Virus record (IMG/VR): IMGVR_UViG_3300047094_000987
Span: 1-60,202 of that record
From: a virus
DNA: 60,202 bases
Reading direction: 5' to 3' (one strand)
This document shows positions 9,524 to 60,202 of the stretch, piece by piece. The translations under genes were made by a program, and so were the position numbers. The notes below the pieces were generated by a model. The model was given only the letters and a program-made list of their open reading frames with translations, was not told the DNA's origin and searched no databases. Within the stretch, counting starts at the first letter, position 1. The number at the start of each line of letters is the position of its first letter.

Positions 9524-11695
9524 TTAGAACTTAAATTTAACCTTTGCAGATACTGCTGTGTTAGAAACCCCATCATTAATTTGATGAATTCCTTCAATAA
9601 TTATCATTTCCTTATAATCAACAGAAGCATTTGCCTCGATCATTCCGCTGGTTTCATAAGAACCACCGACAGTTATGCCGAATAAATCCTTCTTCTTACC
9701 ACCAAAACGATGCGAAATATTTAGACCAACCTCACCAGAATGTGAAGTTTTGTTTATAGTATCTACGGTTCTTCTTGATTGAATAGAACCAGTTTCAGTA
9801 AAACCATCTCTCTGGTAATTACCAACGGTATATCCAACAAATGAAGTTATGTTCTTATTGAGATGCCAGAATAATCTGTTATTTACAAACCATTCTTTTC
9901 CTTGTGTTGAACTTTCATTATTAAAGATACCCTGAACATTTCTTGATACATTATATTTGTTCTGAGAGAAACCAGCATTAGTTAAGAGTGAGAATGTATT
10001 TCCACGGAACATATTAAAGAAACCATAATGACCCTTAACAAGACTAGAAGTACTATCAACACCACCTAAATCAATATTCACATTATTATACTGACCACCA
10101 ATAGTCCAAGTTGGTTTGATATCAATTTCTAATCCACCACCAATAATCAACGACTTACCAGTGTATCCATAGTCACCATAAGACCAAGCATAATAATTGT
10201 TGCTGAATACTCTTACTTTATCTGTGGTTGGTTGAGATGGTTCGTGAATGAAAAGATTTTGTAATCCACCACCAATCTTATCTAAAACTTCGTGCTGATC
10301 AATACGTCCAGAAAGAACATCGTGAGTATTGTTTGTATCAACAGAAAGAAGTAATGAACTTATAACAGTTCCATCACTATAAGTATCTTGCTGTAATAAA
10401 GGAGTTTGACTTGTAGTTGCAAAATCTCTTCTAATCTTTTGAACTCCATCTTTTTCAGATGCTGTATGAGTAACCTCAGTAGTAACAACAACTGGAAGTC
10501 CTGGTGCAGGAACAGTTACAGAGTTTAATAATGTTGGAGATTCTGGTTCAGGAGTGGGTTCTGGTGTGGGATCAGGTGTGGGCTCAGGAGTAGGTTCTGG
10601 TGTGGGCTCAGGTGTAGGTTCAGGAGTAGGTTCTGGTGTGGGTTCAGGAGTAGGTTCTGGTGTGGGCTCTGGGGTAGGTTCAGGAGTTGGAGTTGGATCA
10701 GGGGTTGGTTCTGGTGTGGGCTCTGGGGTAGGTTCTGGTTCAGGTGTTGGAGTGGGTTCTGGTTCTGGTGTAGGTTCAGGAGTTGGGGTTGGTGCTACTT
10801 CATCAACAGATGGTGCATCTGGATTGTTTGGAGCAACAGGTGTAAATGCTTGACCATTCTGTGTTGTAGTTCCAGGCTGACTATCAACTAAGAGAACTGG
10901 TGATAATGCAGTGTCTCCGAGGTTGAATACTGCAAATCCTAAGAGATAATCTCCATCAGCACCTACTTGATATGTTGAATACTGCCATCCAGTAGAACCA
11001 TAAGTTCCAGTTGAATAGTCACCAGTTCCAGGATTAGTAAACCCAAGCAGTGCATAGTTTTGAAGTTGATTATTAACTGTTACTGTTGGAGATGAACCTG
11101 TTCCTTGATAAACAAGTGATGTAATAGAACCATCATTGAAAGGAACATAATCAGTTCCAATGTAGTTCCAAGACATTGTATAAACTGTTCCAGTTTGCAA
11201 AGTCACTGACTTTGTAATCCAAGCAGCATCAGTTGGATTTGGATTTCCTAATCCAGATGCTTGTTGTTGTTGGATGAGAAGATCTTTGATTGCTTGGTTT
11301 TCTGCCGCAGTTAATCCAAGTGCTTCTGTTGCTTGGTTAAATGTTGCTTGACCATTTGGTTGCAATGCAGCACCAGCATCTCCATAAGGAGCAAACTCCC
11401 AAGTTGTTGGTGTTACTGCGGGTGCGTGGTATGGGTTAGGAGAACCATCTTGGAGAGTTGGACTTCCTACTGCTCCGTGAGAGGGTGCATTGAAGATTAC
11501 TGGATTATCGACAACACTAACACCAGTTCCCTGCCCAGTGATTGTGCTGTCTAATGTTCCTGTTTGATTTCCAGTATTCCAACCTGAGGTATTTCCAGAC
11601 TCAAAATCTGTACCAGAAATAGTATCTGCAAATGCAGTTGGTGCTCCCATTAAAAGAGCAGACGCTAAAACAAGCGCCTTCTTAGCGTAAGACAT
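9524..11695 (-). CDS. Autotransporter-like outer membrane protein with PEPT repeats, 723 aa
   Basis: Signal peptide [20 protein letters not shown] (to FA-D), then a beta-rich extracellular-type region (about 25-290), a long PTPEPTPEP repeat linker (about 300-385), and a C-terminal region of about 300 residues whose strands are amphipathic and end in KVKFKF, as in outer membrane beta-barrels and type V autotransporters. It should insert in the host outer membrane and present the N-terminal domain outside. The start has a good GAGG ribosome site and a structured 140-base leader. A virion adhesin is an alternative, but the signal peptide argues against it. Confidence 0.75.
10550..10790 (-). repeat. 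Tandem repeats encoding PEPT linker
   Basis: Imperfect 12- and 18-base units (GGTTCTGGTGTG, GGCTCAGGAGTA variants on the plus strand) repeated about twenty times, coding the PTPEPTPEP linker. Repeat number probably varies between relatives. Confidence 0.9.
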
Positions 11696-13280: not shown

Positions 13281-13458
13281 CTTCCTCTCCTATGTATTCT
13301 AATGAGAAAATATCATGCTCTACAATTTCAGGATCCAACCACTCACAAAATTCGGTTTGGATCGCACGGGCATCTTCAATATTTTTCTCACAGAGAGTAT
13401 GAATACGGTCAACTGCCCAATCATGCGTCTCTCGAAGAGTCTGTTCCAAAGTTACCAT
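13270..13458 (-). CDS. Small acidic protein, 62 aa
   Basis: MVTLEQTLRETHDWAVDRIH begins an acidic helical protein ending GEEDDT. It overlaps the genes on both sides (11 and 38 bases). No family recognised. Confidence 0.65.
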   Translation of the reverse strand: MVTLEQTLRETHDWAVDRIHTLCEKNIEDARAIQTEFCEWLDPEIVEHDIFSLEYIGEEDDT

Positions 13459-13870
13459 AATCTTTTCGCATATAGCGGCCTAGAATATTGCTATTGTAGT
13501 ACGCAGGCGATCCGTCGTCAAGAGATTCTTTCAACACATTATTTAGAAAAAGTTGTTTTGTTTCTTCATAATTACAATCACCCTTTGTCTTATGAAGACT
13601 TATAATTTCTCTATTGAAAAACTCTTTACCATACTTTTTTATATCTTCTTTGAGTTCTGGACAAGATCCGTAGTACTTCTTCCAATCAGATTCTTGTTTA
13701 ACTCTTCTAGATTTACCTTTTGGTGTGCGGTAAGACCAAAAATACTTCCTACCCCAATATTTACGATTATTCTTATTACAAGATATAAGATATACAAAAC
13801 CAAAATTATCTTGAATATCAGAAGACTCAAAAATTTCCCCATTGAATCTCCAAGGGTTTTCATAACTCAT
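13421..13870 (-). CDS. GIY-YIG-like nuclease fold protein, 149 aa
   Basis: GFVYLISCNKNNRKYWGRKYF near residues 25-45 resembles the VY...YxGR core of GIY-YIG nucleases, followed by DWKKYYGSC and KKYGKEFFNREI, features of Seg-like homing endonucleases. An insertion of a charged loop (SRRVKQESDW) is unusual. Two candidate promoters lie upstream: a late GATAAATA at 24 bases and a sigma-70 cassette. It could be a homing endonuclease or a derived structural gene. Confidence 0.55.
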   Translation of the reverse strand: MSYENPWRFNGEIFESSDIQDNFGFVYLISCNKNNRKYWGRKYFWSYRTPKGKSRRVKQESDWKKYYGSCPELKEDIKKYGKEFFNREIISLHKTKGDCNYEETKQLFLNNVLKESLDDGSPAYYNSNILGRYMRKDYGNFGTDSSRDA

Positions 13871-13893: not shown

Positions 13894-13901
13894 TATTTAT
13901 C
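13894..13901 (-). promoter_or_regulatory. Late promoter GATAAATA
   Basis: Late-type octamer 24 bases before the GIY-YIG-like gene, inside the divergent promoter region 13871-13981. Confidence 0.55.
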
Positions 13902-13948
13902 TTCAACGGGAACAAAGCGATTCTACTTATGTTTTGAGTGTTTGTCAA
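13899..13948 (-). promoter_or_regulatory. Early promoter cassette, copy 1
   Basis: TTGACA (13943-13948), 17-bp spacer, TAGAAT (13920-13925), then conserved TTTGTTCCCGTTGAAGAT. From 13899 to 13930, 30 of 32 bases match copy 2 at 59483-59514 in inverted orientation. It reads toward the GIY-YIG-like gene and the lysis block. Confidence 0.75.
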
Positions 13949-13954
13949 GGGGTT

Positions 13955-57843: not shown

Positions 57844-58883
57844 TACTCAACCTCGCAAGCCTGTGAGTATATTTTTTGTAGAATTCCTTTGATAATTGAT
57901 TTATCACAATCAATTTCAGATTCGTCAATATATCTATTCAAAATAGAAATTGTGTTTTCAGTTTCCTCAACTTCGAAATCTTCATCTATGTGAATTTCAA
58001 AGTTCTCTACAATTTTGAGTTCTTGAATTCCAGAAGAATAAAGTTTATCAATGAACTTCTCAAAATTCTTTTGATCGCTCTTCTTTTTAACAATTACCTT
58101 TACAATTTTACTCTGATATTCACGAGCATCGAATAGTTTATAGTTTGTATCTTCATAATAAACGTTGTAGAAGAGTTTGAATGGATTATTAACTGGTTCA
58201 AACTCTAAGGTATCAGTATCAAAAATATGAAATCCTCTGGTATCATTCACATCATTCCAGAACATCTCATAAGGATTTCCTAGGTAGAAGATTTTTCCGT
58301 TATTCGATCGAGTGTGATAGTGTCCCGAGAAGACAAGTTCGAACTTGTCAAATAGTTCGCTTTCCATACCGTCTTCCATGACGTGTCCACGATGCGCTCT
58401 AAATCCATTGAGTTCAAGGTGCCCCATCGCACACTTGCAAGATACACTTTGAATAAGTTTGAAAGTAGTTTCCTCATTTTCTTGATTAATCCAGGGTATA
58501 AACAGAACTTTAAGTTTATCCAGTTTAACTTCGGTTGCTTCTGAATAGACTTTTACGTTTTCATATTGCTTTAACAATAAATCTACAGTATTGACCGAGT
58601 TAGTATTTTTATAGTAAGCAGTATGATTTCCAACAATGGTATGAACAGTAACGCCCATTTGTTGGAGACGATCATAATAATTTTCTTTTGCCCATTCAAG
58701 TGCCCATAAGTCAATTGATCTGCGATTATCAAAAGTATCGCCCATATCAATAACTGTCTTGATATTATTTTCCTCTAAGTAAGGAAAGAAAATTTCATCA
58801 TAGAATTTTTTGAAATAATCGTGAAGAAACTTAGAGGATTTACGGGCCCCGAAATGCTGATCTGTTATAATGGCAACCTTCAT
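57843..58883 (-). CDS. 47: Recombination endonuclease subunit gp47 (Mre11/SbcD-like)
   Basis: 346 aa metallophosphoesterase: IITDQHFGARKSS, VIDMGDTFDNRRS, VGNHTAYYKN, MGHLELNG and FSGHYHTRSNN are the five metal-binding motifs in order. Nuclease partner of gp46. Confidence 0.97.
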   Translation of the reverse strand: MKVAIITDQHFGARKSSKFLHDYFKKFYDEIFFPYLEENNIKTVIDMGDTFDNRRSIDLWALEWAKENYYDRLQQMGVTVHTIVGNHTAYYKNTNSVNTVDLLLKQYENVKVYSEATEVKLDKLKVLFIPWINQENEETTFKLIQSVSCKCAMGHLELNGFRAHRGHVMEDGMESELFDKFELVFSGHYHTRSNNGKIFYLGNPYEMFWNDVNDTRGFHIFDTDTLEFEPVNNPFKLFYNVYYEDTNYKLFDAREYQSKIVKVIVKKKSDQKNFEKFIDKLYSSGIQELKIVENFEIHIDEDFEVEETENTISILNRYIDESEIDCDKSIIKGILQKIYSQACEVE

Positions 58884-59407
58884 CGGTTAGTTTTGTAGGC
58901 AACGTTATCTTTGATTGTATTATAGTCCGAACTGCTTCCAGAAAGCAAGCTATCGTCAACCATCATAACCTCATCAAAACCAGTTCGTTCAATGATCTTG
59001 GTCTTGATTTCCAGTTGCTTCTTCTCCTTTTGAATACGACGGAGAAAAGCATAGTGAATAATTTGAGTAAAGTAAGCAAAGGGGTTTTTAGACTTCTCAG
59101 GATCAAAGTTGTGAATATATTGAACACAATTTTCAATACCATCAGAGATCATATCATCTCTAAACATATAATTCACAAAGTTTGGTTTGTATGAAAGATG
59201 TGTAGCGATTTTCAAGAAACACTCACCCAGATAATTAGAGATTGGTGGTTTACCTTCCCAGTGCTTTGCTCTTTCCTCTTTGGGTTGCTTTGTGAGATCT
59301 TTATCGTACTTCTTCAAGTATGATTTTTCAACTTTAGTTCTATAAACAATTAATGCTTCAAGTAACTCTTTGTTGTTTACATAATGTTCTGATTTCTTCT
59401 TGGACAT
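58880..59407 (-). CDS. 55: Late transcription sigma-like factor gp55
   Basis: 175 aa. The region RDDMISDGIENCVQYIHNFD and NPFAYFTQIIHYAFLRRIQK corresponds to sigma region 2 as in T4 gp55. It directs host RNA polymerase to NATAAATA late promoters, more than a dozen of which are seen in this window. A sigma-70 promoter lies upstream (59444-59471). Confidence 0.93.
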   Translation of the reverse strand: MSKKKSEHYVNNKELLEALIVYRTKVEKSYLKKYDKDLTKQPKEERAKHWEGKPPISNYLGECFLKIATHLSYKPNFVNYMFRDDMISDGIENCVQYIHNFDPEKSKNPFAYFTQIIHYAFLRRIQKEKKQLEIKTKIIERTGFDEVMMVDDSLLSGSSSDYNTIKDNVAYKTNR

Positions 59408-59443
59408 AACATCGGTCTTTGTAGATAAATTTTCGTTATGTAT

Positions 59444-59471
59444 ATTATACCATACTTTCAGGACTTGACAA
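59444..59471 (-). promoter_or_regulatory. Sigma-70 promoter of gp55-47-46 operon
   Basis: TTGTCA (59466-59471), 16-bp spacer, TATAAT (59444-59449) on the minus strand. Its -35 shares bases with the divergent plus-strand cassette. Confidence 0.7.
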
Positions 59472-59514
59472 CATACGAAATTATGAGTAGAATCCCTTTG
59501 TTCCCGTTGAAGAT
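59465..59514 (+). promoter_or_regulatory. Early promoter cassette, copy 2, directed antisense
   Basis: TTGACA (59465-59470), 17-bp spacer, TAGAAT (59488-59493), then TTTGTTCCCGTTGAAGAT. It reads rightward into the antisense of the 137-aa gene and uvsW. From 59483 to 59514 it matches copy 1 (13899-13930) at 30 of 32 bases. Confidence 0.7.
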
Positions 59515-59520
59515 GAGACT

Positions 59521-59934
59521 CTAGCTTTCTTTATTATCTTTAAGATCTTTACGAAAAATATTCTCTAAGTTCTTTCTAGCATCTTCAACAGAAGAGATAT
59601 ATCCCATCTTATTTGATATCTTTACCTTACCATCCAGTTCTATATCAACATCTTCTTCATTAAGATATCTCTCATAGAAGGTTATCATTTGACTTTCTTT
59701 AACTTCAGTCATAGTAACGATCTTATCGTATTTTATAATAAAGAAATCATCAGATGGTATTTCCATCCATGGTTTTACTTTTACGTATTGACCTATATGA
59801 TTATTAATAACTTTCATTATGACAGGATTTTGAAGAATTATGATAGGATCCCCATCATTCTCATCAACACATATTAGAGAAAATATTTCTTCACCTGTTA
59901 CTAATTTGATTGCTGCGTAAAACTCTTCTCCCAT
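59521..59934 (-). CDS. Small beta protein, Sm-like paralog 3, 137 aa
   Basis: YAAIKLVTGEEIFSLICVDE, LQNPVIMKVINN, VKPWMEIPSDDFFIIK and IVTMTEVKESQMITFYERYL follow the order seen in the genes at 42374 and 42624: a K-L-x-x-G-E-x-I start, NP, PWM and a closing Tyr helix. Probably a duplicated family of small barrel proteins (fold guess). Its 3' end faces the antisense promoter cassette. Confidence 0.72.
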   Translation of the reverse strand: MGEEFYAAIKLVTGEEIFSLICVDENDGDPIIILQNPVIMKVINNHIGQYVKVKPWMEIPSDDFFIIKYDKIVTMTEVKESQMITFYERYLNEEDVDIELDGKVKISNKMGYISSVEDARKNLENIFRKDLKDNKES

Positions 59935-60202
59935 TAGTTTTTAAGCGGTATGTTTACAATATCATAATTAAAGTTTTCTTCGTTATAAACTTTTATTCTT
60001 TCTATTAGATGATTAAGAGTATAATTTTTTCTTGATTTATAACTGATATCATCGGCAATGTCATATAGAGTTGCTTTTGATTTATTTTCACTTTTTCTTA
60101 GGACCCTTCCGATTGATTGGAGATTTCTGATTCTTGATTTACTAGGGGAAGCAAAGATGACATTATGTAGATTTCTAATGTTAATACCAGTAGAAAAAGT
60201 GC
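59934..60202 (-). CDS. uvsW: Partial UvsW helicase, C-terminal end
   Basis: Only the last ~88 residues are in the window. VIFASPSKSRIRNLQSIGRV and LRKSENKSKATLYDIADDIS match the end of the T4 UvsW helicase (motif VI QSxGRxxR). UvsW unwinds branched DNA and R-loops. The stop overlaps the next ATG by one base. Confidence 0.85.
   Translation of the reverse strand, partial: TFSTGINIRNLHNVIFASPSKSRIRNLQSIGRVLRKSENKSKATLYDIADDISYKSRKNYTLNHLIERIKVYNEENFNYDIVNIPLKN

Follow-up and report, generated by a model that had tools for sequence, protein, structure and literature searches.

Between gp55, the gene for the late-transcription sigma factor, and the neighbouring Sm-like gene, a T4-like cyanophage carries a promoter that points away from gp55 and towards genes lying on the opposite strand. 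This raises the question of what a promoter facing the wrong way at this locus could be for. The DNA analysed, hereafter called the window, is a 60,202-base IMG/VR record, and comparison of its end region places it nearest to phages S-SRM01 and S-SKS1. T4-like cyanophages are without homologues of alt/modA/modB and of motA/asiA, and the sigma-70-type early promoters of cyanomyoviruses are read by the unmodified host polymerase (PMC2984593). In T4, UvsW is made from a late promoter and removes R-loops at origins (PMC3016281).

The Antisense Promoter and its Divergent Neighbour

The plus strand of the gap contains TTGACA-N17-TAGAAT (59465-59493), matching the consensus at 11 of 12 positions, and the predicted start, a purine (G), is found at position 7 past the -10 hexamer, as in sigma-70-type promoters (Table 1). 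There is no sense gene downstream; the Sm-like gene and then uvsW lie on the opposite strand, which is a cis-antisense layout. The first-pass annotation had proposed that the promoter is aimed at these two genes, and that its -35 overlaps the -35 of the gp55 promoter running the other way. The former proposal is borne out by the match and by the conservation across cyanomyoviruses described below. The latter is confirmed as well; the antisense TTGACA and the gp55 TTGTCA, on opposite strands, have five of six bases in common, as expected of a bidirectional promoter.

The same annotation had noted a 13-codon frame beyond the promoter. This frame does exist (59483-59524, plus strand), but its first base lies some 17 nt ahead of the predicted start G59500, and it is therefore absent from the promoter's transcript. 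A peptide made from it was accordingly rejected as a candidate; the frame is not conserved, and 47 of 94 relatives have no ATG there. A host origin of the cassette was also rejected, with zero exact matches to TAGAATCNCTTTGTTCCCGTTGA in 84,980 bacterial and archaeal genomes. Elsewhere in the window (10503-10805) there is an array of a 12-base repeat (GGTTCTGGTGTG-like), with 17 overlapping 105-nt copies, which is probably a repetitive coding segment.

Table 1. Positions of the promoter elements, genes and cassette copies in the window.
Feature	Position	Strand	Remarks
Antisense promoter, -35 hexamer TTGACA	59465..59470	+	TTGACA in 94/94 distinct gp55-upstream regions
Antisense promoter, -10 hexamer TAGAAT	59488..59493	+	17-nt spacer; class form TA[G/C]A[A/C]T
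Start-site region CCCTTTGTTCCC	59494..59505	+	Predicted start G59500
Conserved beginning of predicted transcript, GTTCCCGTTGAAGAT	59500..59514	+	
Leader element TAGCTTTCTTTA	59522..59533	+	Antisense to stop codon and last codons of Sm-like gene
Divergent gp55 promoter TTGTCA-N16-TATAAT	59444..59471	-	TTGTCA 59471-59466, TATAAT 59449-59444; extended -10 (TG ahead of -10); overlaps antisense -35
gp55, late-transcription sigma factor	58880..59407	-	PHROG 234, E 3.5e-64
Sm-like gene ('methylamine utilization' in phage records)	59521..59934	-	PF16243, E 6e-11; PHROG 471; first gene opposed
uvsW, C-terminal part, cut by window end	59934..60200	-	Synteny with annotated phages; Helicase_C below cut-off
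Other cassette copy, TTGACA-N17-TAGAAT-CGCTTTGTTCCCGTTGAAGAT	13899..13949	-	
SegE-like GIY-YIG endonuclease gene	13421..13870	-	PF19835, E 1.4e-51; other cassette copy oriented in sense
Predicted leader hairpin holding SegE-like start codon	13862..13893	-	-8.7 kcal/mol, z -2.3

Conservation Across Cyanophages

Regions upstream of gp55 were gathered by two scans of viral contigs and from five isolates, giving 94 distinct regions. Every one of them has the antisense TTGACA with a -10, scoring 11-12 of 12 at a spacer of 17 nt (18 in one), while 11 matches are reached by 1.1% of Markov-shuffled versions of the same regions. The exact TTGACA and the 17-nt spacing are found alongside spacer positions that are poorly conserved. 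Since the 94 loci were picked by similarity to the window's proteins, divergent isolates were also read directly. Of 19 isolates, which represent many genera, 18 have the antisense promoter; it was found in S-PM2, S-RIM2, S-MbCM6, ACG-2014a, S-RIM12, S-SSM4, Sf-CH3, DSL-LC02, C48C1 and ACG-2014f, and also in Syn9, S-CREM1 and S-CAM3. The sole exception among the 19 is P-TIM40, where it is absent from a 46-nt gap.

Overlap between the antisense and gp55 -35 hexamers is seen in about 84 of the 94 regions. Other layouts are seen in divergent isolates, where the promoters stand back to back (S-PM2) or are crossed (S-RIM2, Syn9). The overlap is thus only the commonest layout, and the invariant feature is the antisense promoter and not the exact shared hexamer. 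Taken as sequence comparisons, these results support the view that the antisense promoter is kept by selection across cyanomyoviruses.

A Small Promoter Class

The cassette at gp55 belongs to a small promoter class, usually found in two to four copies per genome. Its members have in common TTGACA-N17-TA[G/C]A[A/C/G]T, a start at TTTGT or TCTGT, a dyad centred on the start and TT(G/A)AAGA; AGCT near +25 is frequent. They are in the minority: a scan of four complete genomes showed that the majority of TTGACA promoters end in TATAAT and have unrelated start sequences. The two cassettes of the window are 80% identical over 51 nt, and a 28-nt part reaching from the -10 to the leader differs at one position; allowing up to three mismatches, this 28-mer matches the window twice, whereas 100 shuffles gave no match.

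Counted from its predicted start, the other copy in the window (13949-13899) sits 43 nt upstream of the SegE-like gene. The leader hairpin predicted for this gene is formed by AUAGCUCAU...AUGAGUUAU, with a stronger form in the relative L309, and it resembles the hairpins of T4-group homing endonucleases that shut off early translation (PMC2988022). A gene in S-SRM01 (179396-179827) that the records call 'NAD synthetase' (PHROG 447) belongs by family to the SegE-like GIY-YIG proteins (PF19835).

Further copies are found upstream of SegE-like genes and of a DEAD/DEAH-type helicase. S-SCSM1 has one upstream of nblA plus helicase, in S-RIM2 the class element is the short 5' UTR of cpeT, and in S-SRM01 a copy is antisense to a SegE-like gene. 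S-SRM01 and several contigs have a copy in the gap beside glutaredoxin; this second antisense member (S-SRM01 10890, minus strand; L334, L337, L382 and L387) faces the 3' end of the opposing neighbour as at gp55. In L003, L021, L029 and S-SRM01 (179336) the -35 lies within a hairpin that belongs to the upstream gene and looks like a terminator (e.g., GGGGGGTTGACAAACCCCCTTTTTT), so that terminator and promoter are fused.

The helicase-side copies (L366 from 3481, L372 from 90, L419, and S-SKS1 169894, minus strand) are followed by a GC hairpin and a short U tract, e.g., ACCGTCC...GGACGGTTTTC, directly before the helicase's own second promoter TGCTATAAT. The hairpin of L372 was scored as an intrinsic terminator. 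The sequence suggests that the helicase-side unit is a terminated leader or a small RNA gene of about 80 nt.

The start sequence varies from genome to genome, and within genomes it is identical in 18 of 31 pairs, against 2.7 in shuffles (14 genomes; relatedness uncorrected). Any one of common descent, gene conversion and a factor that co-evolves with the sequence could account for this sharing. In most relatives the 3-5 nt flanking TTTGT/TCTGT are complementary, taking forms such as ACC/GGT, AACC/GGTT, CCC/GGG, CTGG/CCAG, ACTC/GAGT, ACAA/TTGT and a 2-bp AGG/CC; the window's own copies are unpaired at the dyad. The arms covary, both when combinations are counted (22 of 48 fully paired against 13.4, a value as high in one of 5000 right-arm shuffles) and over 69 distinct leaders (mean stem 3.78 against 3.19, as high in none of 1000 shuffles), relatedness being uncorrected in both cases. 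With a start at G the left arm is untranscribed, and an RNA hairpin therefore fails to explain the dyad.

Constraint on the Transcribed Side

The 3' ends of the Sm-like genes are under constraint. Synonymous identity in the last four codons (n = 66) is 1.7 times the codon-usage expectation, compared to 0.97-1.30 elsewhere, and 50 of 51 genes use AGC for the terminal serine, while AGC accounts for 19 of 513 Ser codons (3.7%) in the rest of the gene. The constrained end corresponds to about +20 to +35 of the predicted antisense RNA. Past the last ten or so codons the synonymous constraint drops, and visible selection spans only the first ~35-50 nt. AGCT is enriched in the leaders at gp55, and in the same leader interval at other members of the class, being found in 21 of 25 SegE copies against 1.0, and in 13 of 23 helicase copies against 1.9.

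The simplest reading of these patterns is that a nucleic-acid element belonging to the class leader may be overlaid on the end of the Sm-like gene. The codon constraint could instead act on the sense mRNA, and at SegE the AGCT enrichment is possibly due to the start-codon hairpin. Alignment folding found no conserved RNA fold in the antisense leader; single-sequence energies are weakly below those of mononucleotide shuffles and no lower than further downstream. No conserved terminator was found downstream of the antisense promoter, and Rfam gave no family match across 58800-60202 at E values up to 1.

Proposed Mechanism and Alternative Explanations

The promoter, its class and the constraint on the first ~35-50 nt are supported by the comparisons above, and from these we infer that the promoter is transcribed, that this happens early, that it is repressive, and that a trans-acting factor reads the start/leader element. 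Host RNA polymerase would then fire the antisense promoter early in infection, initiating near G59500, and the RNA would run antisense through the 3' end of the Sm-like gene and, unless terminated, on into uvsW. Because of the overlapping -35 hexamers, the antisense and gp55 promoters would compete for polymerase, and a polymerase occupying the antisense promoter would exclude the gp55 promoter; mutual exclusion is plausible from the physical overlap. Polymerases leaving the antisense promoter would also collide with those descending the uvsW/Sm-like operon. The effect, exerted in cis, would be an early hold on uvsW/Sm-like expression and on read-through towards gp55, and gp55 would be tuned until the promoter class is shut off or outcompeted. 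The start and leader elements shared within the class suggest a common regulator.

Restraining uvsW early on would be logical, given that T4 UvsW is late and strips R-loops from origins. At uvsW itself, a scan of four isolates did not turn up the late-promoter motif expected of cyanophages, which does not bear out the T4 logic of keeping uvsW late. Two further observations speak against the model, namely that P-TIM40 manages without the promoter and that the window's own copy is without the dyad. The model as a whole, in which a real sigma-70-type promoter read by the host polymerase acts as a cis antisense brake on uvsW/Sm-like and competes with gp55, is put forward tentatively, at slightly under an even chance of being correct.

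The element has counterparts in several known systems. CfrI is an expressed antisense RNA of about 225 nt in S-PM2, involving psbA and its endonuclease (Millard et al., 2010; PMC2984593, PMC5931967). As described in these sources, CfrI is similar in belonging to a T4-like cyanophage, in being antisense to a gene's 3' end and in its link to a homing endonuclease, but it lies at another locus, is not assigned there to a promoter class, and has demonstrated expression, while the gp55 element is predicted from sequence. With the sigma-70-type early promoters of cyanomyoviruses the class shares TTGACA-N17-TAnnnT and the presumed reading by host polymerase, but its -10 is mostly not TATAAT, it has a conserved start, dyad and leader, and it is aimed against genes. 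Bidirectional bacterial promoters likewise have core elements that overlap in two directions; here, in contrast, the -35 is as a rule common to both directions while the -10 hexamers are separate, and one locus is concerned across many phage genera. In T4 the same end, keeping UvsW out of early infection, is served by a late promoter (PMC3016281), whereas antisense control would serve it here.

Other explanations have to be considered. A rather unlikely one is that the product is a short trans-acting or leader-type RNA of ~40-80 nt, whose common 5' element is recognised by an antitermination complex or by an RNA-binding protein of the phage. Such an RNA would fit the recurrence of leader elements at unrelated loci, the strong GC hairpin followed by GGUUUUC that the helicase-side RNA meets (an intrinsic terminator in L372), the folding of the SegE start codon into a leader hairpin, and the confinement of visible constraint to about +35-50. 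It is less easily reconciled with the searches that gave no Rfam family, no consensus antisense-leader fold and no terminator at the gp55 copy, and the S-RIM2 element is merely the short 5' UTR of cpeT. It is also improbable that competition is all that matters, i.e., that the promoter sequesters polymerase at the shared -35 and sets gp55 output with the antisense RNA as a by-product. Bidirectional bacterial promoters made from shared elements are on record (PMC10268837), and the frequent overlap, together with the abutting or crossed promoters kept by other lineages, agrees with this. However, the antisense side keeps its own -10, start site and leader, which is unexpected for a by-product, and members of the class also occur at sites that show no divergent phage promoter.

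The proximity to uvsW, which the element adjoins in nearly all genomes examined, could point to priming of a replication origin via R-loops, like the oriF/oriG transcripts of T4, where origins use promoter-made RNAs that are unwound by UvsW (PMC3016281). Four complete genomes show neither a GC-skew nor an AT-skew turn at the locus, but a turn could be masked by the strand bias of the gene order. The same promoter class also drives ordinary genes such as cpeT, and an origin function is given very little probability. A further possibility is that the SegE-like endonuclease, whose promoter bears the same cassette, uses the element as an operator or left it behind as a homing remnant. The window's other copy drives such a gene, uvsW is the target of SegE in T4, and I-TevI is a repressor of its own promoter (PMC2988022). 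But the antisense promoter is kept in four of five SegE-less isolates (S-PM2, Sf-CH3, DSL-LC02, and S-CAM3), so that homing control by SegE is unlikely to be the principal explanation and is given hardly any weight.

Implications for Cyanophage Gene Regulation

A literature search that did not take in the most relevant cyanophage transcriptome studies found no prior description of an antisense unit at the gp55 locus. The near-universal wrong-way promoter beside gp55 suggests, on the reading of an early antisense brake, that an antisense RNA has been overlooked in the early-to-late switch. A possible but doubtful extension is an undescribed early regulon of cyanomyoviruses, usually with two to four promoters per genome, in which a co-evolving factor would read a phage-specific, structure-like start element. 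Its near-universal antisense member would set the timing of the late switch, both through opposition to uvsW/Sm-like and through competition with gp55. The antisense prediction can be checked in existing RNA-seq data from model phages. With an antisense promoter that is near-universal beside the gene for the late sigma factor, and a small regulon that has the same start element, studies of early/late timing gain a concrete target; if the prediction is true, a conserved antisense unit would be added to phages with few known antisense RNAs.
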